64,000 nucleotides of DNA from Synechococcales cyanobacterium C42_A2020_086 (GTDB lineage Bacteria > Cyanobacteriota > Cyanobacteriia > Elainellales > Elainellaceae). Below, one piece after another: positions 12,139 through 59,801 of the stretch. Location: the NCBI GenBank assembly GCA_015272325.1, contig JACYLU010000021.1:99038-163037 (forward strand), given 5' to 3'. The notes under the pieces are model-generated. The model worked only from the letters and a program-made list of their open reading frames with translations. It did not search any database and was not told the origin of the DNA. The first letter of the stretch is position 1; every line of letters starts with the position of its first letter. The position numbers were made by a program, and so were the translations under genes.

Positions 12139-13083
12139 ATGAGTGAAACTAGTTCTGCGTTAAGACAGTTCGTTAATTCTGCTCGCTGGCGACCCAAGCG
12201 CTCGCTTAGCCAATGGTCCGAACGCCTGATCAAGATCGTGTTCGGCACGTTTGCCTTAATTTCGATTCTCACGACTCTCGGGATCATCTTCTCGCTCGTT
12301 TTTGAAACCGTGGAATTCTTTAAGGAGGTGCCGGTATGGCGCTTCCTCACCGATACCCAGTGGACGCCGCTATTTGTGAATCCACAGTACGGCATTATTG
12401 TTCTGATCTGCGCCACGCTGTTGACCTCGGTGATTGCGCTGCTAGTAGCGATTCCGCTGGGGTTGCTGGCGGCGATCTACCTCAGCGAATATGCCAATCC
12501 GCGGCTGCGGCGTTGGTTGAAGCCGGCTTTGGAGGTGCTGGCAGGGGTGCCCAGCGTTGTCTACGGCTATTTCGCCCTGCTGTTTGTGACGCCGATTTTG
12601 CAGGCGTTGATTCCCGGCATGGAGACTTTTAATGCCTTGAGTGCCGGACTGGTGATGGGGATTGCGATTCTGCCGATTATGGCGTCGTTAAGCGAAGATG
12701 CGATCTACGCGGTGCCCCAAAGTTTGCGGCAGGGAGCCTATGCCGTAGGAGCCACCCAGCGAGAGACGATTACCAATGTGGTGCTGCCGGGTGCCTTATC
12801 GGGGATTGTCGCCGCCTCGATTTTGAGCGTTGCTCGCGCCGTAGGGGAAACGATGATTGTCACCATTGCCGCCGGGCAGAACCCGCGTCTCACCCTCGAT
12901 CCGCGAGTGTCGGTGCAGACGATGACCTCGTTCATTGTGCAGGTGAGCTTGGGGGATGCGCCGGTGTTCTCAATCGAATACAAAACTATTTTTGCCGTCG
13001 GCATGACGCTGTTCGCCATGACGCTGCTGCTAAATATTTTTAGCTTCTGGTTCGTCAACCGCTTCCGGGAGAAATACGAATGA
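12139..13083 (+). CDS. pstC: Phosphate ABC transporter permease PstC
   Basis: PstC is one of two membrane subunits of the Pst phosphate importer. The 314-residue protein has about six hydrophobic helices and the inner-membrane component signature around [23 protein letters not shown], which contacts the ATPase. The N-terminal 25 residues are basic and cytoplasmic. The stop overlaps the pstA start (ATGA), so translation is coupled. It depends on PstA and PstB for function. Confidence 0.95.
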
Positions 13084-14024
13084 CCACGACCGAGTCCAAG
13101 GCGTTTTCCTTTCCTGAGGGCGCTGATGCCCTTCAATTTGAGCCAGCTCTCGACCACCGCTACCGTCTCGATCGCATTTTTGCCACTGCCGCTTTGATTG
13201 CGACGACCATAGGACTGCTGGTGCTGACGGTACTCCTCATCGATGTGATAATCGACGGGCTACCGCGCCTGAGCTGGGACTTTTTGACAAGCTATCCTTC
13301 GCGACGTCCGGCTCGGGCAGGGATTCTGTCGCCGCTGGTGGGCACCCTCTGGCTGCTGGTGCTGACAGCACTGATTGCCTTTCCCATTGGCGTGGGGTCT
13401 GGTATTTTTCTAGAGGAATTTGCCGCCAACACGAGACTGGCGAAACTGATTGAAATCAATATTGGCAATCTGGCCGCCGTGCCTTCAATCATCTACGGAC
13501 TGCTAGCGCTGCAAGTGTTTGTGCGACTCATGGAGCCGATTACTGGCGGACGCACTGTGCTGTCGGGCGGGCTGACGCTGTCGCTCCTGATTTTGCCGGT
13601 GATTATTGTCGCCACGCGAGAGGCGCTGCGGGCCGTTCCCAGCAGTATTCGTCAGGCGGGGTTTGCTTTGGGTACCACTCGCTGGCAGGTGGTGCGCGAT
13701 CATGTACTGCCGCTGGCGTTTCCCGGTATCCTCACCGGCACGATTCTGGCGCTGTCGCGGGCAATTGGTGAAACGGCTTCGCTGATCACGATTGGAGCGC
13801 TGACCTTTATTGCTTTCTTACCGCCGCTGATTCCCCTGATCGACGGCTTGCGATCCTCCTTCACGGCGCTGCCGATCCAAACTTACAACTGGGTGTCGCG
13901 GCCACAGCCAGAATTCCACCAGAATGCGGCTGCGGCAATCATTGTGCTAATGACCGTTCTGCTGCTAATGAATGCTACCGCCATCTACTTGCGCAACCGA
14001 ACCCAACAAATTCGCAACGATTAG
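13080..14024 (+). CDS. pstA: Phosphate ABC transporter permease PstA
   Basis: This is the second membrane subunit of the phosphate importer, 314 residues with about six helices. The ATPase-docking loop reads [26 protein letters not shown] without the full extent quoted here. An ATGA overlap couples it to pstC. The cytoplasmic N-terminus is longer than in E. coli PstA, which is usual in cyanobacteria. A 95-nt gap separates it from pstB. Confidence 0.95.
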
Positions 14025-23554: not shown

Positions 23555-23822
23555 GAATACTGTATCTAGCTGCTTGCTCGGTGGGGTAGTGCTAAGAGAA
23601 AACTCCGCGGAGCGCGGGCTTCACTCCACGGAGAAGATTGGAGCGCGGCAGGGGGGCTTCAGCCGCTAGAGTGTGCTTAGATCTCGGAACTTGAAGGACA
23701 ACTGATGACACAACGCAACATGCTTGAGTTATCAGTCTGCAATCAGTCTAGACAATCCAGGAGGAGATGTCTGTGGGAAAAAGTAAGAAAAGGTCAGATC
23801 TCTTGTCCATTGATTGCGAAGG
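23555..23822. other. Gap with a GC-rich inverted repeat
   Basis: CTCCGCGGAG and CTCCACGGAG (about 23607-23636) can pair with one mismatch, and each is nearly palindromic on its own. It may be a terminator of the upstream receiver-PAS gene. No coding frame is seen. Confidence 0.35.
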
Positions 23823-24644
23823 CTAATGATCCGTAGACTCGTTGCCCCCAGGAGACGACACAACGCCGTCGATGCAGTCCTCCTCAGCATTCCAGTAAGC
23901 AGATATCAACCCTGCCTGCTCCGATCCATCGCGCCGAATCAAGCGAGTGCTGTAGCGGTGGATTTCGCCGTCCGTTAGCAGCAGAGTCAGCAGTTGCTCA
24001 CGACTCTGAAACTGTAGCCAAGACCATGCTGCTGCTGCCATCAACTCTGAAGTAGAGTCATAGTCCAGCAGGGTCAGCAACTGAGCGTTCACCTCTAGCA
24101 ATCTGCCCTCGCGATTGACGCGGAAGCTGCCAACCAACGTGTTGTGGAAGAAATGGCGCCAGCGCGTCTCGCTCTGCTGCAAGCGGGCGGTGAGTTGTTC
24201 TGCGTGCTGTTGGGCGTGGGTTAGGCGGTGCTGCTGTTCCTGAAGCTGCTGTTGCAGGTGGCGGATGGTTAAGGCATTCTCTACGCGAGCAAACACCTCT
24301 TCCTCGCTAAAGGGCTTAGTAATGTAGTCAATACCGCCGACGGCAAACGCCTTGACCTTATCTAAGACTTCATCGAGGGCGCTGATAAAAATAACCGGAA
24401 TATCTCGCGTGGTCGCCATCGCTTTCAAGTGCTGACAGACTTCGTAGCCGCTCATGTTCGGCATGCGAATATCCAGCAGGATCAAGTCCGGAGGATTTGC
24501 CTGTGCCGTTTTCAATGCCATCTGCCCATCGATGACCCGCCGCACTTCGTAGCCTTGCTCGGTCAGCATTGCCGAGAGCAGCCGCAGGTTGTTGGGGGTG
24601 TCGTCTACCAGCAGAATATTACCTCTGGGGAAAGCAGCCGTCAT
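23823..24644 (-). CDS. Response regulator with PAS output domain
   Basis: The 273-residue protein has a receiver domain (about 8-125) with Asp14-Asp15, phosphoacceptor Asp58 in LLDIRMPNMSG and Lys in YITKPFSEE. A coiled coil rich in Gln (about 128-160) and a PAS domain (about 160-265) follow. There is no DNA-binding or enzymatic output domain. It starts 5 nt after the stop of the hybrid kinase, so it is its operon partner and probable phosphate acceptor. The PAS domain could be for ligand sensing or dimerisation. Confidence 0.9.
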   Translation of the reverse strand: MTAAFPRGNILLVDDTPNNLRLLSAMLTEQGYEVRRVIDGQMALKTAQANPPDLILLDIRMPNMSGYEVCQHLKAMATTRDIPVIFISALDEVLDKVKAFAVGGIDYITKPFSEEEVFARVENALTIRHLQQQLQEQQHRLTHAQQHAEQLTARLQQSETRWRHFFHNTLVGSFRVNREGRLLEVNAQLLTLLDYDSTSELMAAAAWSWLQFQSREQLLTLLLTDGEIHRYSTRLIRRDGSEQAGLISAYWNAEEDCIDGVVSSPGGNESTDH

Positions 24645-24649
24645 AGGAT

Positions 24650-27600
24650 TCAGGAAGATGGAGGATCGATCAGAGGAGTGGTGAGGTCCAAAATGGCGTC
24701 CCAGCGGAACTGAGACACGAGTTCTGCTAAGGCGTCGGCAGTCGCGGCAGCAGAGTCGGGCAACTGCTGCAGGAGTTCAGCCATTTGCTGTTCGTCGGTA
24801 CAGAGGGCAACCTGATGCAGCTGCTGTAGCCAGGGTCGGGGCAGCGTTGCCAACCTCTCTGCGGTCAACTCATAGGATGGCGACGGCTCAGGCTGCGTAG
24901 ATTCGTCATAGAGATAGCGGACACCGAGATGCTGTGCCATCTTCTCGAAAATATCTTTTTCTTGGTATGGTTTGCGTACTAAATCATCACAACCCGCAGC
25001 CAGAATCTTGCCCTGCTGTTCCTCAAAAGCGCTAGCTGTTAAGGCAATAATTTTGGTAATCGGCATCTCTGATTTTGATACGCACCAATCACGACTTTGG
25101 TTTTTTGAAGATTCAGAACTATCTGGCTCTTGTGTTCTTGTTCTGTGGCTGCGCTCCAATTCGCGAATCCGTTGGGTAGCTAGATAACCATTCATCACGG
25201 GCATTCGCATATCCATCCAAATCAAGTGAGGATGCCAGGTTTGCCATTGGGTAATGGCTTCTTCTCCATTGGTAGCCGTTTGGGTGATGAAGCCAACGGT
25301 ACTGAGCAAGCGCACCATTAGCAACCGATTTTCTGGGCGGTCGTCTACTACCAGAACACGATAGATGGGCTGCCCGGGTGCCAGATGCAGCACGCGCCGA
25401 TGCACGGCAGGCAGCGCCAACTGGGGAGGTGCCAACTCTATCGGAATGGTAAAGCGAAAGATCGATCCCTGCCCTAGGCGACTTGTGACTTTTAGGTCTC
25501 CGCCCATCAGACGCACAAACTGATGGCTAATCGCCAACCCCAGCCCGGTTCCCTCACCGGATTGCAACCCCGACATCGTCTGGATAAACGGCTGAAACAG
25601 CTGATCCAGGTCTTCGGGTGCAATACCGCAGCCCGTGTCTTCCACTTGGCAGATTAGCTTTAGTGCAGCAAAGGGTTCCACGCTCACTCGCAGCGTCACT
25701 CCGCCGGTTTGGGTAAACTTGACGGCATTGCCCAGCAGGTTGATCAAGACCTGCCGCAGTTTACCTTCGTCGGTCAATACATAGCGGGGTAAATCGGGGG
25801 CGAGATCGAACGTAATCGAAAGCTGCTTGGCGCGGGTACGCATTTGAAACATCTCATAGAGTGTTTGCAGCAGTCGGTGTAAATCGAAGGGGTCCCGATT
25901 CAGCACAATCCGGCCCGCTTCGATTTTGGACATTTCCAGCACGTCATTGATTAAGTTGAGCAGATGCTCCCCGCTGTGGTTGATGGTGGAGAGCGCTTCG
26001 CGCTGGCTAGCACTGAGCGTCGTGTCGCGTTCCATGAGCTGGGCAAAGCCAAGGATAGCGTTGAGGGGTGTCCGCAGTTCGTGGCTCATGTTGGCTAGGA
26101 AAATGCTCTTGGCGCGGTTGGCGGCTTCGGCGGCATCTTTGGCAACCAGCAGCGAGGTTTCGGCATGTTTACGCTCTAGCTCGGCTCCCGCTCGCGCTGC
26201 AAAGATTTTGAGAATCAGCTCTCGTCCTGGATCCGGTGGCATCGGCTTCACATCCATGACGGCCAGGTGCCCTAGGATATTGCCCGAGGAACCCAGTAAA
26301 GGGGCCCCCAGATAGCTTTCTGCCTGGATCGCCAGCAGTTCTTTGGCGTCGGGAAACAGCGTGGGTAATTGGGCAGGTAGGTAATACACTGCTCCGGCGA
26401 GAACGGCAGCGCAGGGTGCGGTTTGCACATTGCATTCAAAATTATCGCCGGCTCGATCGCCCTGCCAAAAGGCCAGCGTGCGGATCCGGGTTTTCGCCTC
26501 GTTGATCACGGTAGCCACCACGGCATAGCGAACCTGCAACACTTCCGCCAAGTAGCGAACGCAGGAGGAGAAGAACTCATCGCCGGTTGTGGCGGCCGTG
26601 CCTTCCACAATCAGCCGCAGGGCTTGCTCACGATGCTGGCGTTCGGTAATGTCTTCGGAGACAGCCAGAATATGGGTAGCTTGACCTTCAGCATCGTAGA
26701 GGGGCAGTTTCCAGCCGCGCACCAAAATTCGCTCCGGACCTTCGCCAATCCAGTGATCTGGAAACTCAAGCAGGGCTCCGTGCTGCAGAGCGGCTTGATC
26801 TTCCTGCCGGTGGTAGTCAGCCTGCTCAGGCGGGATCAGCTCGTAGTCGTTGCGCCCTAGAGCCTGCTCTCGAGAAACGCCTAGCACCCGTTCCGAGCTT
26901 TGGTTAATCAAGACGTAGCGGAAGTCATTTTGGACATCTTTAGCAAACAGTGCCAAAGGAATGCTGTTGATTACGCTGTCGAGAAATTGCTGCGATCGGC
27001 GCAGTTCTGTCTCTAGCCGCTGGCGTTCGCTAATCTCTATATGCAAATGCTCGTTGAGATGCTGCAGGGTGAGGGTGCGCTCTTCCACCTTGGCTTCCAA
27101 GTCGGTGTAGAGGACGCGCAACTGTTCGATCATTTGGTTAAATACCCGGGCCAAGGTGCCAATTTCATTGTCCATCAGCACCGGAGCTGTCGAGGTGAGA
27201 TCACCTGCCGCAACTTGGGTGGCCGTCTGGGTAATGGCTAAAATCGGGTGGGCAATGCGGCGCGTGCCAAAATAGACGCCCACAGCCAGCAGCCCGGCTA
27301 GCCCCAGTCCTGTAAAAAAGATAGTTTGCGCCAACTGCCGTGCCGGAGCAAAAGCTTCCTGGGTGCTAATTTCTGCAAGCAGCGCCAGATCGTGCTTCTC
27401 CAGCCAGCGATAGACGCCGAGCACCTCAATCCCTTGATAGTTGAGGTACACCCCTGCGCCGTTGTGCCCCCGTGCCGCCTGCTCAATGCCTTCACTATAG
27501 ATACCCTGGAGGTGCTGGTTCCATGATTCGCCGGAAACAAAAACGTTGTAGCGTTCGAAGGTATTGCCTTGATTGGGCAGCGTGTTGCCCACTAGATAGG

Positions 27601-28240
27601 TTTCGCCGGTTTCTCCTAAGCCGGTGCGTTTGCGAATAATCTCGTCAATACGGCTGAGATCTAAATGGGTTGCTAGCACGCCAATTTGCTTGCCGTTGAC
27701 GTCGAGCACGGGAGTAGCAAAGGTCATTCTGGGCTGCCCGGTGGTCGGTGATGGGTAGAAATTGGGCAAGAAGGCGAGATTGGGATCTTGAGGTAAATAG
27801 CTGTACTGCACCAGCGATTCATAGGTGTTTTGGGCAGTACGGTTCGTGGAAAACAGCACCTTGCCGCCATTTGTCAGCACTAGCATTTCCTCCAGGCTGG
27901 AGTGGTTGTCGGCAATTGGCGTCAGCGAGGCGGAAAGATGCTGATGCGCTTGCTGCTGTTGCTGGAGTGGCAGTTTAGGCTGGAGCAGCAGTGGTGCAAA
28001 TTCCTTGACTTCTGGAAGTTGAGCAAACGTCGAGATCTCTTCGCGCTGGTCTTCAATCCAGCGGTTCAGCTCGTCTTCTTTGAGGGTGGCGGTTAAACTG
28101 AGGCGCTCAAAGATTGACTGCTTCAGGGCTTCTCGAGCTTGCAGAAAAGCGACCAAGCAAATCGTGCCCACTGAGACAAAGGACAGCAGCAGGTAATATC
28201 CAATCAGTTGAACGATCAGGCTGCGTTTCCAGGTATGCAT
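24650..28240 (-). CDS. Hybrid histidine kinase dCache-HAMP-PAS-GAF-HK-REC
   Basis: The 1196-residue kinase has a membrane helix at about 9-33, a periplasmic dCache-like sensor (about 36-300), a second helix (about 306-326) and HAMP (about 327-380). PAS (about 420-535) and GAF (about 540-690) follow, then HisKA with His720 in SHELRTPLN, HATPase (NLLGNAVKF, DTGCGI, GTGLGLAIS) and a receiver with Asp1010 in WMDMRMPVMNG. A polar insert of about 25 residues interrupts the receiver after RELERSHR. The C-terminal 60 residues (WLQQLHQVALCTDEQQ onward) form a helical module also found in the AAA protein at 29850. It is followed by its regulator and preceded, 213 nt away, by a solute-binding lipoprotein that may feed its sensor domain. 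Confidence 0.93.
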   Translation of the reverse strand: MHTWKRSLIVQLIGYYLLLSFVSVGTICLVAFLQAREALKQSIFERLSLTATLKEDELNRWIEDQREEISTFAQLPEVKEFAPLLLQPKLPLQQQQQAHQHLSASLTPIADNHSSLEEMLVLTNGGKVLFSTNRTAQNTYESLVQYSYLPQDPNLAFLPNFYPSPTTGQPRMTFATPVLDVNGKQIGVLATHLDLSRIDEIIRKRTGLGETGETYLVGNTLPNQGNTFERYNVFVSGESWNQHLQGIYSEGIEQAARGHNGAGVYLNYQGIEVLGVYRWLEKHDLALLAEISTQEAFAPARQLAQTIFFTGLGLAGLLAVGVYFGTRRIAHPILAITQTATQVAAGDLTSTAPVLMDNEIGTLARVFNQMIEQLRVLYTDLEAKVEERTLTLQHLNEHLHIEISERQRLETELRRSQQFLDSVINSIPLALFAKDVQNDFRYVLINQSSERVLGVSREQALGRNDYELIPPEQADYHRQEDQAALQHGALLEFPDHWIGEGPERILVRGWKLPLYDAEGQATHILAVSEDITERQHREQALRLIVEGTAATTGDEFFSSCVRYLAEVLQVRYAVVATVINEAKTRIRTLAFWQGDRAGDNFECNVQTAPCAAVLAGAVYYLPAQLPTLFPDAKELLAIQAESYLGAPLLGSSGNILGHLAVMDVKPMPPDPGRELILKIFAARAGAELERKHAETSLLVAKDAAEAANRAKSIFLANMSHELRTPLNAILGFAQLMERDTTLSASQREALSTINHSGEHLLNLINDVLEMSKIEAGRIVLNRDPFDLHRLLQTLYEMFQMRTRAKQLSITFDLAPDLPRYVLTDEGKLRQVLINLLGNAVKFTQTGGVTLRVSVEPFAALKLICQVEDTGCGIAPEDLDQLFQPFIQTMSGLQSGEGTGLGLAISHQFVRLMGGDLKVTSRLGQGSIFRFTIPIELAPPQLALPAVHRRVLHLAPGQPIYRVLVVDDRPENRLLMVRLLSTVGFITQTATNGEEAITQWQTWHPHLIWMDMRMPVMNGYLATQRIRELERSHRTRTQEPDSSESSKNQSRDWCVSKSEMPITKIIALTASAFEEQQGKILAAGCDDLVRKPYQEKDIFEKMAQHLGVRYLYDESTQPEPSPSYELTAERLATLPRPWLQQLHQVALCTDEQQMAELLQQLPDSAAATADALAELVSQFRWDAILDLTTPLIDPPSS

Positions 28241-28453
28241 TGTCCACCCGCACGTTACTCATACGTTGTCAAGATAGCAACACCTAAGCGAGTAGCCTCA
28301 GGAAATTTGTAACGAAAGTAAATGTTAATTCCAGGAAGAAAAATCAAGCGATGGCAGCAGCAGCAAAACTGAGATGCTTTGCATCCTACCTCAGGACATC
28401 GGGAATGACAAATCTGGATTGAGCCTTGAGCCAGGTGCTAGCGTTAGCGCCAG

Positions 28454-29842
28454 TTAGCGTTCCCATTCAGCGGCAATACGGTTGATGTGCTGAATGGCTT
28501 CATCTACGACCATTTCCGGCGATTGCCCCTCAACAATCACGCGGTGGATGGCTTGTCCCCAAATATTTTCAGACTGAACCTGCGAATAGGCGGGATTGAG
28601 CACGTGGTAGAAGAGACGGGTTGGATGCTGCATCAGCTGCTGCACGGCTTTCGAGACATGAGGATCGCGGGCATCTTGCCAAAACGCATCTTTGAGCAGA
28701 TCGGGCATCACTGGAAACCAGCGTCCTAGCGATCCTTTGATGTACTGGTTGAGGCGGTCTGGCTGAATTAAATAGGCAAGAAACTGTTTAGCGGCATTTG
28801 GATTAGGGCTGTTCTTAAAAATCAATGCTTGCTTGATAGACGTAAGATAGCGGATTGGCTCGCCGTCTGGCTCCAAGGGAAACTCCCGAGTCACGATCTG
28901 CTCTTGGTAAACTGCCTCGTCGCCGCGCTGCGAGGCGGGGATTGCCAAACTCGGGTTGGCAGTCATCAGCGTCACCCGGTTCAAAAAGTTGACATTGTTA
29001 TCGGAATCGACCCAGTTGAGGGCACTAGTCGGCACATAGCCCGTTTGATAGAACTGCGTCAGCCAAGTTAGGGAGTCGATCACGCCTTGCCGCACAGCCG
29101 GATCGCTGAGGCGCAGTTTGCCTTCGGCGTCTAGTAGCTCAATATCGTAGGCTTCTAAAATCTGCTCAAACAGGAAAAACGTGTCGCTGGCCTTCGTAGA
29201 GAGGGGCAGCCCGAGTCCGTAAAGTTCTTCTTTGCCTTTTTGGCGCAGCTGCTTTTGCCCTTGTTTCCAGATATTCCAAAAGCCATCCCAGTCATTGGGA
29301 ATATCGGTTTCCTGGAGGTTAGCTTGCGTCAGCAGATCGCGCCAATAGTGAATGTGAATCGTTTGCAGTTCAATGGGCACGCCGTAGTATCGCCGCTGCT
29401 GAATCGTTTTGTCATAGAGGTAGGCCGACTCTAGGGCAGCCGGGCTGTAGCGATCCCGCACTGGCTCGATGACCTCCGAGACATCCATGAGCTTGCCTTC
29501 CAGGGCCCAGCGGGGTTGCAGCGTGTAATCTGCTCGATGGGCAAACACAATATCCGGCGGCGCATTATTTTCCAGGGCGATGGTTGTTTGGTTGAGAATA
29601 TCATCGGAACTAATCAGCGACAGCTCTACGCGCGTTCCGGTCTGCTGCTCCCAGTCTTGGATCACTTGCTGCAAGGCCTGATCTTCCTCGGGATAAAAGC
29701 CGCGATTCCAGTAGATGCGTAGCGCAGCCGGTCCTGGATCACCTGTCTGATTCACTATTGGCTCTGAGTGGCAAGATAGCAGCAGCGCCACGAGCAACCC
29801 CAGCATTCCTGCAATCAGCCTGCGCCTCCACCTGCTCATCAT
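28454..29842 (-). CDS. ABC-type solute-binding lipoprotein, family 1
   Basis: The 462-residue protein has a lipoprotein signal with lipobox LLSC (Cys24). It matches family 1 extracellular (sugar-type) binding proteins: RIYWNRGFYPEEDQALQQV, IVFAHRADY, WDGFWNIWKQGQKQ and NPNAAKQFLAYL. No permease or ATPase gene is near. It lies 7 nt after the AAA/HisKA gene and 213 nt before the dCache kinase on the same strand. This suggests a sensory receptor that presents a ligand to the kinase, though transport with distant permeases remains possible. The ligand is unknown. Confidence 0.85.
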   Translation of the reverse strand: MMSRWRRRLIAGMLGLLVALLLSCHSEPIVNQTGDPGPAALRIYWNRGFYPEEDQALQQVIQDWEQQTGTRVELSLISSDDILNQTTIALENNAPPDIVFAHRADYTLQPRWALEGKLMDVSEVIEPVRDRYSPAALESAYLYDKTIQQRRYYGVPIELQTIHIHYWRDLLTQANLQETDIPNDWDGFWNIWKQGQKQLRQKGKEELYGLGLPLSTKASDTFFLFEQILEAYDIELLDAEGKLRLSDPAVRQGVIDSLTWLTQFYQTGYVPTSALNWVDSDNNVNFLNRVTLMTANPSLAIPASQRGDEAVYQEQIVTREFPLEPDGEPIRYLTSIKQALIFKNSPNPNAAKQFLAYLIQPDRLNQYIKGSLGRWFPVMPDLLKDAFWQDARDPHVSKAVQQLMQHPTRLFYHVLNPAYSQVQSENIWGQAIHRVIVEGQSPEMVVDEAIQHINRIAAEWER

Positions 29843-29849
29843 AAAAACC

Positions 29850-31832
29850 CTATTCTCCTTGCAGCAACGATTGGGTTAAATGCAGAATTTGGTCGCAGCG
29901 GAAATTGTTGACTAGCTCGGTCAGCCCCAGCACCAACGCTGCATGGGTAGGGGGCACCTGCGCCAGCAGACGCAAAATTTGCTGCTCATCGGTGTAGAGG
30001 GCAGCTTGATGCAATTGCTGAATCCAGTCAAGGGGCATTGAGGTTAGGCTGTCGGGCGTGAGTGAGTCGGGCGGAGCGGTCGCCGCGGCCACCGAAACGG
30101 CACAAGAGCGGTATAGAGCAGCGTAGTCCTGATCGTGTTTAGACCGCTCTAGAATCGTGTTGATCAACAGCAGCAGGTGTTTGGCGCTGTGGTGAATAAT
30201 CGTTAAACTTTCGCGCTGAGCACCCGTTAAAGTAGAGTCCCGCAGTAGCCGCTGCGCAAACCCCAAGATAGCATTCAGCGGCGTTCGCAGTTCGTGGCTC
30301 ATGTGCGAAACAAAATCATTCGCAGCGGCATGAGTATCCATCGACGCGGCCGGTTCTAGGGGAGCAGAGGACTGGCTTGGCTCAGGTAGTGGGTGCGCTA
30401 GCGACTGCTGCAAGTCGCGGTAGGCTCGCGCTTGGCTGGCAATTAAAAACTGGTAATCCAACTCACTCAACCGATGCGAGGTAGCCCAATGCTGCGCCTC
30501 GACTAGGGCTTGCCCAGTCAGTAAACAAGATTCATCCTGCCGATTAGAATCTAGCCACGCCTTCAGCACCGTAGCATAGGGTCGCAGAGCTGCTAATTGA
30601 GACTCTACCCAAGCCGCGCTAAATACCTCGCGGTAGATGCGGTTGAATACATGGAGGTGCCCCTGATATCGCACCACTAAGCCACTCAACAGCAGGGCCA
30701 ACTGCTCGGGCGAGTCGTCCCAGGGAACCGGGGCAGACAGCACTTTCAAATACAGTTCGAGCAGGCAACTTGCCCGCTGTTCGTCTTGCAGCAGGCGATT
30801 GCGGATCGTCTTCAGGTGTTCTGGTTCGTCCTGCATCTCCCAGTGCTCAATGATCCGCGACTGCACAAATTTTTCAATGGCTAGCACGGGCAGTTGGTAA
30901 TAGAACTGGATCAAGTGACGGTTGACGATCGGTAGTTCGTAATCGAGGCCCCAAGTTGTTGAGTTGAGGTTCTCGGTGTCTGTTGTATCGGGCCCTTGGC
31001 GCAGCAGTTCACTGTCGCTGCTGCGGCTTTCCGCCACGATCCGACAGAGCTTTTGGGTCAAGAAGGGCTGCCCCCCAGTCCAGGCTAGAATTTCCCGCAG
31101 CACTGCCTGGGGATTGCCCACTTTTCCGTCGAGTCCTGCGGCTAAGGGCTGTGCCTCTGCCAGCGTAAAGCCGTGCAGATCGATGGCTCGTCCGATGTTG
31201 AGCGGCGTTCGCGTTAGGTCGCGGATGAGATCAGACGGTGTAGCGACCCCAAACAGGGCCCAGTTCAGCCGTTGGTAGGTGGGGTTTTCGGCTCGCTGAT
31301 TGTAGCAATAGCGAATTAGCACAAAGAAATCATCTACGCAAAAATCCAGGCTTAAGACGCTATCGATCTCATCTACAAAAATGAACAGGTCGGTTTCGGG
31401 CAGTTCGCTCAGCAGCAGCTCAATCAACTGACTCAAGCGTTGCGGCAGCGATAGGTGACTTTGCTCATGCCACCATCCTAGAAAATCAATGGCATCTAGC
31501 AGCCCAAAACCGCGTAGCAGATCGATGCCTATGCCGATATACCACTGCTCGGGTGTGATGTTCTTGCTGCCGATCCGTGTCATATCAATCGAAGCGCAGC
31601 GCTTCCCAAGCTGTTCTAGCCGTTGCTTAGTGCGTAGCCGCAAGCTCGATTTTCCCATCTGGCGAGAATTGAAGACGTAACACAATTCGCCCCGCAACAG
31701 CGCCTGATACAGTTCGCTGTCTGCCTGTCGCTCAATGTAGCTGGGAGCATCGGTTCTCAGGCTACCTCCCACCTGATATTCATAGGAGGGGTTTGGAGAT
31801 GTACTCATTGCTGTACCATTGCTCGTCTCCAT
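29850..31832 (-). CDS. AAA-like ATPase fused to HisKA, no kinase domain
   Basis: The 660-residue protein starts with the AAA-like (AAA_35 type) opening [20 protein letters not shown]. Walker A is SRQMGKSS (about 56-63) and Walker B is [10 protein letters not shown] with Asp154-Glu155. A helical region reaches about 470. Residues about 505-570 are a HisKA domain with intact His513 in SHELRTPLN, but no HATPase domain follows. The last 60 residues ([16 protein letters not shown]) match the C-terminal module of the kinase at 24650. It may receive phosphate in trans from that kinase. It leads the operon with the binding lipoprotein. The ATG at 31832 has a weak ribosome site; an ATG eight codons in is an alternative. 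Confidence 0.85.
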
Positions 31833-32042: not shown

Positions 32043-33527
32043 TTAGTGATTCAGCAACTGCTGCTGAAAGTAAAGGCGGTATAATTCTCGACTCGGAGCT
32101 ACTCGATCGCCCTGCAGCTTGACTAATCCTAAGCTTTCTAATTGGTAGACCGTAACCGGTTCGAGATGAATCGTTTGGTCGTGCAGCACCTGCCCTAGGG
32201 CAAGCGCCAAAGCAGGACGCTCCTGCAGATGGGTGAGATGCTGCCGGAGGTGTTCGCCGTAGATGCCTGCCGGGGTTGCTGCGTCTTGCAACAGTTGCTC
32301 CAGGGTCAGATCACGCCGTCCTAGATGATAAAAAGCTAACCGCACCAGATAGGGATGCCCGCCAATGAGGTCTAGCAGCGGCTGCAGGCAGTGCCGACCA
32401 ATATCTCCTTCGGCCCAAGTCAAGCCATGCCGCAGGGCTAGGTTCTGTACTTGAGCCGTGTTCAGCTCGGGCAGTTTAATGGGCAGACCCACATTAAATG
32501 GAGATTGATGAATATTCAGCGGAATGTAGACCTCGGTTGCATGGACTACGACCAGCCGCAGCTTCTGCCACACCTCAAATTCTGAGGCATCCTCGTACCA
32601 TGACCGCAGCAGCGGTAAAAAGTCTGCCGCTAGTTCCGGATACTCAAACAGCCGGTTGACTTCATCGAGAGCCAAAACCAGTGCTGTATCGATAGACTTG
32701 AGCAGATAGCGCTGAAAGTAGAGCGTGCAGCTCATTTTGCTGCCGGCATCTTGATTCCAGTACTGCTCCAGATTGGGCATTAGGTCAAGCTGCTGGCTGA
32801 TGTTGGTGCAGAGCCAGCGCAAGAAGGGATCAAGTGAGCGGAACACAGCGCTATCAGCCCGCTGCAAATTCAGCATGGCGGTCTGGAAGCCGCACTGTCG
32901 GGCATAGGCAACAATCCGATGCATCAAGGAGGATTTGCCCATTTGCCGGGGGGCTTTGATCCGGATGAGGCTGCCTGGCTTGCTGACCTCAGCAAAGACC
33001 TGCTCTTCAATTGGGGGTCGCGCCACATAGAATCGAGAGCCAAGGGCTACCGTGCCACTGGGAAATTCTAGAGCATTGGCACTAGCGGCACCGATGGCGT
33101 CCTCGAGGGCAGAACTGGCAGCGCCAACCGGCGGGGTCACTCCTAAACCGGCAAGGGGAGACTCCGTTGGATGAGAGCGACTGTTCAGCTTCTGCTGGTA
33201 GCGTCGCAGTGCCGACTGCACATTTTTCTTGGTAACCTTTTCTCCTAGGGCTTTGGTCAGCTCATTCCACAATTGCGACCCAATCTCGCGGATGTAGCTA
33301 TCGTCGTACCGGAGTTCTCCGGCAATTTCCTCGTAGCTTTGCCCCAGCCACGACCGACAGAAGACCAGCAACTGCAAATCACTCAGGTGTTTGGGCTGCA
33401 GGGCTTGCTCTAAAACAGCGAGGGCTTCATCAGCGGTCATAAGCTCTGGAACAGGTGGCGCAAGAGCAGGATCAGCATCGGGTGCTTCTGATTTTACCGT
33501 TCGAGGTTGAATTGCCAAAATTGCCAT
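32043..33527 (-). CDS. vMAP-like HTH + AAA ATPase
   Basis: The protein has 494 residues from the ATG at 33527, chosen because AGAGG lies 8 nt upstream; the frame extends 21 codons further. The N-terminal part (about 35-125) reads LSDLQLLVFCRSWLGQSYEEIAGE, the helix-turn-helix seen at the start of vWA-MoxR-associated (vMAP) proteins. An AAA-like ATPase follows with Walker [10 protein letters not shown] and a Walker B-like ALVLALDEVN. The end is a winged-helix-like region. Proteins of this kind occur in predicted cyanobacterial conflict and signalling systems. The 210-nt gap to the next gene leaves open whether they share a transcript. Confidence 0.75.
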   Translation of the reverse strand: MAILAIQPRTVKSEAPDADPALAPPVPELMTADEALAVLEQALQPKHLSDLQLLVFCRSWLGQSYEEIAGELRYDDSYIREIGSQLWNELTKALGEKVTKKNVQSALRRYQQKLNSRSHPTESPLAGLGVTPPVGAASSALEDAIGAASANALEFPSGTVALGSRFYVARPPIEEQVFAEVSKPGSLIRIKAPRQMGKSSLMHRIVAYARQCGFQTAMLNLQRADSAVFRSLDPFLRWLCTNISQQLDLMPNLEQYWNQDAGSKMSCTLYFQRYLLKSIDTALVLALDEVNRLFEYPELAADFLPLLRSWYEDASEFEVWQKLRLVVVHATEVYIPLNIHQSPFNVGLPIKLPELNTAQVQNLALRHGLTWAEGDIGRHCLQPLLDLIGGHPYLVRLAFYHLGRRDLTLEQLLQDAATPAGIYGEHLRQHLTHLQERPALALALGQVLHDQTIHLEPVTVYQLESLGLVKLQGDRVAPSRELYRLYFQQQLLNH

Positions 33528-34178
33528 CCTCGCCACCTCTCGTAATGTTGCTCTCGAGTTGAGGGAATTGCTGGCAAATCTGCCTCTCAATGCCTCTCAA
33601 TTCAGTAACTGTTCTCGATCGCTTTACTGATCGCTTTACTGATCACTGCTCATGATTACTTCTAAGGTAGAGGGTCATGTCGGTTCGATCTGTAGGAAAA
33701 AGTGGGATCCTGTAGGGTATTGGTGTATCAACTCTATTGTTTCAAGACTTTTCAAGCAACAGGCTTGGTTGGATACAATCAAGGGCAGCTCAAGGGCAGC
33801 GAGCCGGATGCCAACGGGGGAAGTTTCCACTCTGGAATTCAGCCAAACTAATCAGGATGGAAGCATCGAACCCCCATCCTGCAACCAAAACAATTTGACT
33901 AGAACGATTTTGACTAAAAGATTAGAACAAAGACTAAAACAAAATCTGTCAGCGTTTTCACTGGCGTTTCATTCCTTTAAGTCGGATGCTGGACAATTCA
34001 CTCGGCACGGGTTGGGGTTGCCCATAGAAGCCGAGTGACGCCTGCGCTAGAAGACAGCCGTATTCCTCAACAATATTCCTCGACGACGCTCCCTGAGGCG
34101 AGTGAAGCCGTCTAGACGATTCATCTGCTGTATGTTCGCTTAATCACTGCTCACTCTACCGCACAGCCCAACCCGGGC
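33528..34178. other. Repeat-rich intergenic region
   Basis: This 650-nt stretch lacks a convincing gene. A 128-codon plus-strand frame at 33652-34038 has no family resemblance and low-complexity content. The stretch holds four short tandem duplications: TGCCTCTCAA x2 (33581-33600), GATCGCTTTACT x2 (33617-33640), CAAGGGCAGC(T/G) x2 (33780-33801) and a degenerate 13-mer pair at 34061-34086. Confidence 0.6.
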
Positions 34179-57864: not shown

Positions 57865-58181
57865 GCTCGCGTCACTCGTGGTTTCCCAGCCAAACACTCC
57901 CCCATTTTCTAGGATTTCGTGGAAAGGTGACAGGAATAATGACGGTTCGTGGGTTTGCAGCAGAACTTCCCGCAGTTTCAGTGATAACGGTATAGTAGAA
58001 ACCAGGCAATGGAGCTTGCCTTAACCGCTTCTGAAGCTTTGTTTATTTTGTTTATATTGACCTTTCAGAATGCTGATGGCTCCTACTGTTTTGACTTGTG
58101 GCAGAGGCTTGCAGCAGAACGGTAGGGGCTGCTTGTCATGGTCTGCCCAAGTTGCGCCAATAGATCTACTGGAGTTGCAGG
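57865..58181. other. Divergent promoter region
   Basis: This gap lies between the AI-2E-family gene and the antiporter gene. Nothing beyond AT-rich promoter-like DNA around 58030-58065 is visible. Confidence 0.35.
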
Positions 58182-59801
58182 ATGCTGGAAAGTGTGGTTT
58201 GGATGCTGCTAGGCGGCTTCTTTGCGGGTCAACTAGCGCGCCGTTGTAGGCTGCCGGCCCTAGTGGGCATGGTGCTGCTGGGAATTATCTTGGGTCCACA
58301 GGTTGCCAATGTCTTAGATTCGTCGCTACTCCAGGCGGCGGATGGACTGCGAGTCATTGCTGTGATGGTGATCTTGATGAAAGCGGGGCTAGGGCTAGAT
58401 CGCGAGAAACTAGCGCAGCAAGGGTCGGTAGCGCTGCGGCTAGGATTTCTACCCGCTGTCGGTGAGGCCTTGGCAATTGCGCTGGCATCGCGGGCGATCT
58501 TCGGGTTTGATTTTGCCACCGGGCTGCTGCTGGGCTGCGTGATTGGAGCGGAATCGCCCGCCGTGATTGTGCCGGGAATGCTGCGGCTCAAGAGTTTGGG
58601 GTGGGGTGTTAAAAAAGGGATCCCCGACGCCATTTTGACGGGCAGTGCTCTGTCGGATGTGCTGCTGCTATTGGTGTTTAGCCTGCTGCTTGCCTTCCTC
58701 TCGGGGGCAGACACAACCACCAGCTTGCCTGGAGGTATTACCCTTAGCGCCGCGCAGCGCTTGCCGCTACAAATTATTGCCCAAATTGGCTTCGGAATCC
58801 TGCTAGGAGCCGTGACCGCTCGGGTGTTAATTGTGCTGCTGGCTAAGCAAAACTGGACCCAGACGATCGTGCAGGATACCTTGGTCACAGCTAGCGTGGC
58901 GTTGCTGCTGGTTGTGGTCGCAGAAGATGTTCCGATCTTCTCCGGCTATCTAGCGGTCATGTCTCTAGGATTCTTTTTGATTGAGCAGGATGCGCCCTTG
59001 GCTCGTCGGCTGCGGGGTGGCTTTGATGGACTCTGGACCGTGGCAGAGGTGGCGCTGTTTGTGCTGCTGGGAGCAAGTATCCAACTGCAGGTGCTGGGCG
59101 ATAGTCTGCTGCCGGGGCTGCTAATTTTGGCGATTGGCACCTTGATCGGACGCGCGATTGGCTGGTACCTCTCGACTGTAAAAAGCAACTGGACCTGGAA
59201 AGAGCGGCTGTTTCTGCTGCCGGGCAACTCGGCCAAAGCGACCGTACAGGCGGCCATTGGAGCACTACCTCTGGCGAATGGCTTGGCAGGAGGAGACACC
59301 ATTCTGGCAGTGGCAGCTCTGTCGATTCTGGTCACTGCACCGCTAGGGGCTTGGGCGATTCCTACTTTTGCGCCGCGCCTGTTGGAACGCGGGGAGGTGG
59401 ACCCCACCAAGGTCTCGGTGACCCGTCCGGTAACGATTTTGGCTGCCGTAGACACGTCACGATTTGCCACGGCGGTTTTAATGAAAGCAGCAGAGCTAGC
59501 TCGCCGCAGTGATGGGGACGTCATCGTTCTGCATGTGGTTCGCACCTCCGATCCCGCAGCCATAGCCAATCTCGAAGCTCAAACCCAACGCCTGTTGTCT
59601 GATATTCGCCATCGGCTGCTTACGATTCCCGGAGCTGTGCCGGAAGAAATTCTGCGGGTAGCTCAAGACTACCAGGCAACCGAGATTGTTATTGGCAAGC
59701 GCGGGCACTCTCCGTGGCAAACCGTGCTCGTGGGGTCGGTATCGCAAGCGGTTCTAGAAGCAAGCCCAATTCCGGTGCTGGTGGTGGAAGCAGATGCCTA
59801 G
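58182..59801 (+). CDS. Cation:proton antiporter fused to USP domain
   Basis: The 539-residue protein has a CPA-type antiporter membrane domain (about 1-405, roughly 12 helices). Its GCVIGAESPAVIVPGML, DAILTGSALSDVLLLLV and LPGNSAKATVQAAIGALPLA segments hold the conserved charged and polar residues of the exchange site. A universal stress protein domain (about 412-538) ends with EIVIGKRGHSPWQTVLVGSVSQAVLEAS. That part keeps the G-x9-GS-x2 nucleotide-binding pattern, so ATP or a cyclic nucleotide may control transport. The cation is unknown. Confidence 0.88.
   Translation: MLESVVWMLLGGFFAGQLARRCRLPALVGMVLLGIILGPQVANVLDSSLLQAADGLRVIAVMVILMKAGLGLDREKLAQQGSVALRLGFLPAVGEALAIALASRAIFGFDFATGLLLGCVIGAESPAVIVPGMLRLKSLGWGVKKGIPDAILTGSALSDVLLLLVFSLLLAFLSGADTTTSLPGGITLSAAQRLPLQIIAQIGFGILLGAVTARVLIVLLAKQNWTQTIVQDTLVTASVALLLVVVAEDVPIFSGYLAVMSLGFFLIEQDAPLARRLRGGFDGLWTVAEVALFVLLGASIQLQVLGDSLLPGLLILAIGTLIGRAIGWYLSTVKSNWTWKERLFLLPGNSAKATVQAAIGALPLANGLAGGDTILAVAALSILVTAPLGAWAIPTFAPRLLERGEVDPTKVSVTRPVTILAAVDTSRFATAVLMKAAELARRSDGDVIVLHVVRTSDPAAIANLEAQTQRLLSDIRHRLLTIPGAVPEEILRVAQDYQATEIVIGKRGHSPWQTVLVGSVSQAVLEASPIPVLVVEADA

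Follow-up and report, generated by a model that had tools for sequence, protein, structure and literature searches.

The 64,000-nucleotide stretch of the Synechococcales cyanobacterium C42_A2020_086 genome analyzed here, hereafter the window (contig JACYLU010000021.1, positions 99,038 to 163,037), carries a cassette of five minus-strand genes in which a sugar-type solute-binding lipoprotein is encoded between a pair of AAA_35 NTPases and a hybrid histidine kinase. The cassette opens with an AAA_35 NTPase of 515 amino acids (32043..33590; Pfam AAA_35, E 2.8e-142), called from a TTG codon and possibly starting internally, whose N-terminal part has no Pfam match at E 0.1. It is followed 210 nucleotides downstream by a second AAA_35 NTPase of 660 amino acids (29850..31832), assigned from the open reading frame list, Pfam, BLASTP and an AlphaFold model, which adds a DHp (HisKA) domain and a C-terminal tail and has no HATPase. 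Next come the lipoprotein (28454..29842; 462 amino acids; SBP_bac_8/SBP_bac_1 by Pfam, with a lipobox at Cys24 and a Protein Data Bank profile match), a 1196-amino-acid hybrid kinase of the order dCache-HAMP-PAS-(GAF-like)-HisKA-HATPase-REC-tail (24650..28240), and a receiver-PAS-like protein of 273 amino acids (23823..24644). The initial annotation had described the last four as tightly spaced minus-strand genes with gaps of 7, 213 and 5 nucleotides, and open reading frames lie at exactly those positions; its set was incomplete, the fifth gene being the AAA_35 gene at 32043-33590 on the same strand. We count this gene as a cassette member because a gene-order check across relatives, which that annotation had proposed, found the same AAA_35 pair ahead of the binding protein in L040, L042, L043, L045, L046 and L130. 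The check upheld conservation of the gene order in relatives. Behind the last gene a terminator-like hairpin of 12 pairs (8 G-C) followed by TTTT lies at 23603..23633 (minus strand); it is a consensus match only, one of a number of such sites in the region whose total is not above that in shuffles, and a promoter scan of the region likewise gave matches no more frequent than in shuffled sequence.

The domain calls largely bear out what had been read from the letters. In the kinase, Pfam gives dCache_1, HAMP, PAS_4, HisKA, HATPase_c and Response_reg, in keeping with the hybrid kinase with a dCache domain of the initial annotation; the dCache_1 domain (residues 38-219, 27584..28129; E 8.6e-18) is predicted to be periplasmic, a GAF domain is scored by Pfam in the kinase of the relative L040 and not in that of the window, and a residue check found the motifs for autophosphorylation and transfer to the receiver (His720, Asp1010). 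The kinase tail (residues 1120-1191, 24668..24883) was delimited by BLASTP against the AAA protein. For the receiver-PAS-like protein the receiver half of the earlier reading holds (Response_reg, E 3.9e-29, with Asp58), and the PAS half falls below the Pfam threshold used, though the counterpart in L217 scores as REC-PAS-PAS; Response_reg is the only domain that Pfam finds in the window protein, with no DNA-binding domain.

The second AAA_35 protein is the unusual member of the cassette. Pfam places AAA_35 at residues 23-284 (97.1 bits against a cut-off of 27), with a Walker A motif RQMGKSS at 57 and a Walker B motif FIFVDE at 150, and HisKA at 505-568, and it finds no HATPase, in keeping with the earlier claim of a phosphorylatable histidine without a kinase domain. 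The DHp domain spans residues 501-569 (30126..30332; HisKA E 9.4e-18) and carries the predicted phosphoacceptor His513; the tail spans residues 591-655 (29868..30062) and bears the signature TDE...FRCD. The C-terminal half is, however, more than the isolated HisKA that had been noted there: it looks like a trimmed DHp plus tail of the cassette kinase's own lineage. Aligned by BLASTP, the AAA protein and the cassette kinase are 54% identical over 80 residues of the HisKA stretch (E 9e-21), and AAA residues 586-657 are 50% identical to the kinase C-terminal tail over 72 residues (E 8e-14); between DHp and tail, the kinase has HATPase and REC and the AAA protein only about a dozen residues. An AlphaFold2 model (mean predicted local distance difference test score 78) shows the AAA core, a helical hairpin at 498-530/537-566 and a helical tail at 601-658. 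Foldseek of this model against the Protein Data Bank returned ORC2, SSO1545, Avs3 and Avs4 (TM-scores 0.23-0.32 by query length), the latter two being STAND proteins; the matches listed for the whole model, at least 50 in number, gave AAA+ folds, and none of those listed covered the DHp or tail alone.

How this C-terminal half has been conserved was examined in 47 proteins with AAA_35, DHp and tail, namely the window protein and 46 of 120 listed relatives. A HATPase profile search found no such domain in any of the 47, and REC is retained between DHp and tail in six and absent in 41. The phosphoacceptor histidine is conserved in 46 of the 47 and the threonine four positions on (H+4) in 45, whereas the acidic residue directly after the histidine (H+1) is present in 37 of 47, as against 54 of 54 complete kinase DHp domains from the same loci (55 rows, one of them gapped at H+1); the ten substitutes are five H, three N, one G and one K. 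In HisKA kinases the acid beside the phosphoacceptor histidine is required for autophosphorylation. Retention of the histidine alongside drift at H+1 is a pattern as expected if phosphate acceptance, rather than autokinase activity, were under selection. In a separate listing of 120 rows, 15 lack HATPase by their Pfam labels, and the only non-AAA protein of these is P0293, a 372-amino-acid PAS-DHp-tail protein without AAA_35.

The tail, which alone is predicted to form a small helical bundle, ties the AAA protein to the cassette kinases. Its FR[CW]D motif occurs in 48 of 48 distinct AAA_35 tails and in eight of 25 distinct kinase tails, leaving none in the remaining 17. Those eight kinases belong to the cassettes of the window, L040, L042, L046, L129 and L130, to L041, where the binding protein lies at the contig start and the AAA side is out of view, and to L078/L140; the L043 kinase tail has the motif too, encoded in a different frame from its kinase domain. 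Seven further aligned tails are without it, including that of L217 (FRID), where the AAA pair comes without a DHp. We considered the tail as an active HPt domain and rejected this, there being no invariant histidine column in 34 aligned tails.

In a maximum-likelihood tree built from the DHp and tail regions (71 rows and 142 columns, a short alignment), a branch with a bootstrap value of 96 and an SH-like approximate likelihood ratio test (SH-aLRT) value of 78 has 47 AAA rows to one side. These rows differ slightly from the conservation set: P0099 is absent, P0003 and P0041 enter through locus copies of the same sequence, and L040 is an extra row. A further branch (91/94) separates the AAA rows together with seven cassette-type kinases from 17 other tail-bearing kinases; among the seven is that of L078, whose contig lacks an AAA gene. 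The distribution of the tail signature, common to AAA tails and cassette kinases, agrees with this topology. If the tree is rooted among ordinary kinases, there is moderate support for the DHp-tail of the AAA protein having derived from the cassette kinase's own lineage and, under the same rooting, likewise moderate support for the loss of HATPase preceding the divergence of the AAA rows, with REC lost afterwards in the group of 41 rows.

The binding protein is far more widespread than the AAA proteins beside it. Its lipobox Cys24 is invariant in 22 aligned binding proteins, and a profile search of the Protein Data Bank matched sugar-binding proteins of known structure (best 5ci5, E 1.5e-14); the same search was tried as a guide to a specific ligand and yields "sugar-type" and nothing finer. 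An even draw of 291 genomes from the class turned up the family in 75, with 92 matches scoring E 1e-60 or better. Relatives were also located at 59 loci of named genomes, and holders of the family include Synechococcus and Prochlorococcus. Eighteen of the 92 matches were already in our set, and the other 74 were fetched as 73 regions, which hold 74 binding proteins, 73 of them with enough downstream sequence. Domain counts in these neighborhoods used custom profiles built from the window proteins and their kin, not Pfam. A dCache-encoding gene comes next within 900 nucleotides in 68 of the 73 testable cases; 17 of the 18 earlier matches also have one (L132:4579-5853 does not), for a total of 85 of 91. 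The background is low: five of 338 other open reading frames of 250 amino acids or more in the same 73 regions have dCache next. The five of the 73 testable cases without dCache next are L212, both L242 genes (a tandem with no receptor behind), L274 (dCache 2.7 kb further on) and L282 (a cyclase gene behind). Over all loci we counted 159 binding proteins, 156 of them testable, of which 123 are followed by dCache, 15 by a tandem binding protein, five by a permease and 13 by neither, totals that include some double counts where the same contigs were taken twice (for example L044/L211, L069/L226 and L079/L255). As a check, Pfam was run on 13 dCache partners (the window, L040, L043, L049, L053, L063 with two genes, L064, L075, L085, L214 with two genes, and L246); all gave dCache_1 at E 1.5e-4 or better, seven of 13 above the Pfam cut-off.

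Several variations on this arrangement were seen. Lyngbya/Okeania-type loci (L047, L052, L055, L057, L058, L089 and L094) have tandem arrays of two to four binding-protein genes or pieces before one dCache receptor, which might supply a single receptor with several ligands, and in some partners (L063, L064, L214) a peptidoglycan-binding domain (PG_binding_1) stands ahead of dCache. In P0102, P0105, P0106, P0107 and P0115, AAA_35 is fused in one chain to a PBP-like substrate-binding domain (PF12849), and these predicted fusions are another link between the AAA_35 NTPase and binding proteins. The window genome also encodes a second, distant binding protein (L139:8539-9900 in G000:C8; 25% identity), in whose 19 kb of fetched sequence there was no match to dCache, kinase, the EAA motif or the permease profile.

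The initial annotation had noted no permease gene for the lipoprotein, and in this it was correct: a permease profile run over 144 whole loci on both strands found no match in any cyanobacterial locus. Matches occurred in five of the 144, all alphaproteobacterial (L077, L080, L081, L083 and L086, three of them Geminicoccaceae), and there a protein assigned by Pfam to PF00528 lies directly behind the binding protein, followed by a second profile match; a sixth alphaproteobacterial locus, L093, ends within the binding protein. The profile, first built from six alphaproteobacterial sequences, found six of 20 permease loci of the window genome, and once the 12 control sequences recovered in this way had been built into it, the number rose to 14 of 20, a partly circular control; it is suited to MalF/MalG-like permeases, and distant ones may escape it. 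A simple EAA-motif search was dropped in its favor, having missed real alphaproteobacterial permeases. We also considered the PF00528 permeases within the window (about 12139-14024) as partners and rejected them, as they lie some 10 kb away in what, on a reading of the genes by eye, is presumably a Pst phosphate operon. When a tree of 82 binding proteins (quick search) is rooted with the six alphaproteobacterial rows as outgroup, the other 76 fall opposite (SH-aLRT 99). One row, L087, labelled uncultured proteobacterium, sits among Synechococcus in this tree and is probably misbinned. Judging from the sequence comparisons, the binding protein apparently left transport for a role in sensing, where the output is a kinase or a cyclase depending on the clade.

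The outputs themselves vary. In the window and many other loci the receptor is a hybrid kinase; L053 has a dCache-HAMP-HisKA-HATPase protein of about 690 amino acids, L067 (Arthrospira) a hybrid kinase, a GAF-cyclase and a REC protein, L085 (Synechococcus) a separate dCache-like protein plus a class III cyclase, and L097 (Prochlorococcus) a cyclase gene directly behind the binding protein. The arrangement of binding protein then dCache-like protein and class III cyclase, or cyclase directly, recurs across the Synechococcus/Prochlorococcus-type loci L085, L090, L091, L097, L266, L268 and L282, and may amount to a binding-protein-controlled cyclic AMP switch. By profile, an AEC-family carrier is encoded in the fetched stretch of 50 of the 159 binding proteins, all in clades other than that of the window, mostly upstream on the same strand (for example L085:7744-8808, L246:7960-9030, L252:7952-8938 and L063:7833-8855; Mem_trans, PF03547, was confirmed in L085, L252 and L219). 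In the four loci tested a protein of 620-710 amino acids with a Lar_N (lactate racemase) match precedes the carrier, three of the matches being above the Pfam cut-off. These neighbors hint at a hydroxy-acid or sugar-acid ligand. Elsewhere in the window a fluoride riboswitch (57996-58092, plus strand; 45 bits) lies just upstream of an open reading frame at 58182-59801 which, read by eye, we take to resemble a membrane transporter.

The AAA protein with DHp was found in nine genomes (the window genome, G010, G012, G017, G018, G022, G023, G035 and G028), a count of strong matches among the candidates scored, which were some of those in each genome. In an order-wide search of 36 genomes the same nine carry a binding protein that matches at 60% identity or more along most of its length; G027 has a partial binding protein at 62% identity, and no AAA protein with DHp was found there. 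The AAA-DHp gene adjoins the binding-protein gene in seven of the nine. In G023 (L128, L129) the set is split between strands, the AAA pair lying on one and the remaining genes on the other with about 9.5 kb between the closest genes, and the AAA-DHp gene is about 15 kb from the binding protein and about 9.5 kb from the REC-PAS gene; in G028 the AAA-DHp gene is broken and both genes are at contig ends, leaving eight genomes testable for linkage, and in all eight the AAA-DHp gene is beside or near this binding protein. AAA_35 genes also occur as same-strand pairs at L009-L038, L217 and L283-L298, a member of roughly 450-500 amino acids being followed by one with a variable C-terminus, and the C-terminal parts annotated among the listed relatives are WD40, TPR, PBP and DHp. 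Judged by gene content, the widespread core is the binding protein-dCache pair, to which some members of the window's sub-clade have added the AAA pair.

There are precedents for a binding protein that signals through a kinase. In LuxP-LuxQ a binding protein reports to a hybrid kinase, and the likeness that the initial annotation had drawn to this system stands as a functional analogy; it does not extend to the protein families, the cassette being SBP_bac_8/1 plus dCache_1, and the cassette kinase scores 254.7 with the LuxQ equivalog model, short of its cut-off of 1200. Spo0B and ChpT are DHp hairpins with a phosphoacceptor histidine and no working kinase, in which a degenerate HATPase-like domain is retained. 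The AAA-DHp protein resembles them in its conserved histidine on a DHp hairpin and its missing kinase domain, and differs in having no HATPase-like domain (none of 47) and in the fusion of its DHp to AAA_35 and tail. A response regulator with DNA-binding output is a trait of described three-component systems. The cassette shares with these a binding-protein gene adjoining a kinase with an extracytoplasmic domain and the absence of an adjacent permease; it is predicted to function like a standard three-component system and is not filed as one, because its receiver protein is without a DNA-binding output.

Among the published systems close to the cassette is CuaDSR of Ruminiclostridium cellulolyticum, where, in the available text of PMC10384115, CuaD is stated to bind CuaS, and the system regulates a separate transporter, CuaABC, with its own binding protein. 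As far as that text goes, CuaDSR and XylFII-LytS (cited in PMC10384115) are like the cassette in having a sugar-type binding-protein gene beside a kinase with an extracellular domain and in using it for signaling. Unlike CuaDSR, the cassette has no nearby transporter and its receiver has no DNA-binding domain, and it brings a hybrid kinase that has PAS, REC and a tail, together with a pair of AAA_35 NTPases of which one has a DHp; in relatives, cyclases are used. GltB with GtrS-GltR of Pseudomonas aeruginosa, in the portion of PMC7927077 available, similarly has a periplasmic binding protein activating a sensor kinase; it belongs to glucose transport, and AAA proteins are not mentioned in that portion. 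HstK (Alr2258) of Anabaena, as presented in the accessible part of PMC2176072, is another cyanobacterial fusion of a histidine-kinase part to a different signaling enzyme, from which the AAA-DHp protein differs in having no kinase ATP-binding domain. The VMAP/iSTAND ternary systems described in the available text of PMC7159879 combine STAND/AAA+ components with varied partners, cyanobacteria included; PF14516 is not named in that text. Our literature search, beyond whose reach most subscription papers lay, found no paper on PF14516, on an AAA_35-HisKA protein or on this cyanobacterial binding-protein family.

The reading that we favor, though with slightly less than even confidence, is that the five genes form a ligand-sensing phosphorelay with the AAA-DHp protein as an NTP-gated phosphotransfer arm. 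By analogy with CuaD and CuaS, the ligand-loaded lipoprotein would contact the dCache domain of the kinase, which would autophosphorylate at His720 and load its own receiver at Asp1010; His513 of the AAA protein would be supplied with phosphate by this receiver, or, within a mixed dimer, by the kinase ATP-binding domain itself, and would exchange it with Asp58 of the receiver-PAS protein, while the AAA_35 core, together with its partner AAA_35 protein, would decide when the arm is available. A broader and bolder proposal, on balance doubtful, is that cyanobacteria hold a large unrecognized family of receptors. In it, the sugar-type binding protein of a transporter would have been redirected to dCache receptors that act through kinases or cyclases, and in one lineage a copy of the receptor kinase's DHp and tail would have been joined to an AAA/STAND-like NTPase as an NTP-gated phosphorelay node, in effect a kinase minus its ATP-binding domain that adopted a different NTPase as its switch.

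A number of observations weigh against the phosphorelay. The histidine is missing from one AAA relative, P0099; nine of the ten non-acidic H+1 residues lie inside one 17-row sub-clade and therefore reflect few events; and the window protein itself retains the acid (Glu514). The L078/L140 kinases carry FR[CW]D though their contig has no AAA gene, a fold search with the tail gave FliS and HPt resemblances within the chance range for helical bundles, and the receiver-PAS protein is without any known output domain. G205 and G112 (L210, L211) have a 61% identical binding protein and a dCache kinase with no AAA genes adjoining. L217 (G071) has the order AAA_35-AAA_35-binding protein-dCache kinase-REC-PAS with neither DHp nor tail on its second AAA protein, and the arm is therefore dispensable there; the DHp-tail is either a further step after acquisition of the AAA pair or was lost in G071. 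AAA_35 gene pairs are, moreover, frequent in cyanobacteria without any such binding protein.

The strongest rival to the phosphorelay, unlikely in our estimate yet to be taken seriously, is that the DHp-tail acts as a docking or decoy element, pairing with the kinase DHp as a heterodimer or with its tail and holding, loading or silencing the kinase according to the NTPase state. DHp domains dimerize, those of the AAA protein and the kinase are 54% identical, and the tail is strongly conserved without an invariant histidine, its signature being common to AAA proteins and cassette kinases and present in none of the 17 other tail-bearing kinases; docking would not need the phosphoacceptor histidine, however, and yet this residue persists in 46 of 47 proteins while its neighbor drifts. 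The same persistence, with threonine at H+4 in 45 of 47 and FR[CW]D in 48 of 48 tails across wide divergence, makes it scarcely credible that the DHp-tail is a functionless, decaying kinase remnant, even with HATPase absent from all 47 proteins, REC absent from 41, drift at H+1 and a G028 gene broken at its contig end.

The frequency of AAA_35 pairs away from binding proteins, their varied C-termini, the missing DHp in L217 and the resemblance of the AAA model to Avs3/Avs4 and ORC-type AAA proteins would all fit an independent STAND-like stress or conflict module that lies beside the sensor by chance, with the DHp as a swappable C-terminal part. We think this improbable: the AAA-DHp gene is beside or near the binding protein in all eight testable genomes, even in G023 with its split set, and the tree places the DHp-tail that it encodes with the lineage of the cassette kinase. 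The lipoprotein might also serve a transporter encoded elsewhere that the kinase merely regulates, and the genome does have 53 PF00528 matches, with AEC carriers near binding proteins of other clades; against this stand the near-constant dCache neighbor and the cyanobacterial loci devoid of permease-profile matches, and we consider it very improbable.

What is already known, then, is that binding proteins report to kinases, as in CuaDSR, XylFII-LytS and GltB-GtrS; to our knowledge, two features are new, namely that dCache takes the place of the permease throughout the family and that an AAA protein carries a DHp without HATPase. A binding protein held by a quarter of the sampled genomes could, if it serves sensing rather than import, account for the way in which photosynthetic bacteria detect organic compounds dissolved around them, and it would offer an evolutionary case of a transport protein moved into signaling while its transporter version is still found in Alphaproteobacteria. 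If the phosphorelay is real, the AAA-DHp protein would show how the phosphoacceptor of a histidine kinase can outlive the kinase when a different NTPase controls it.

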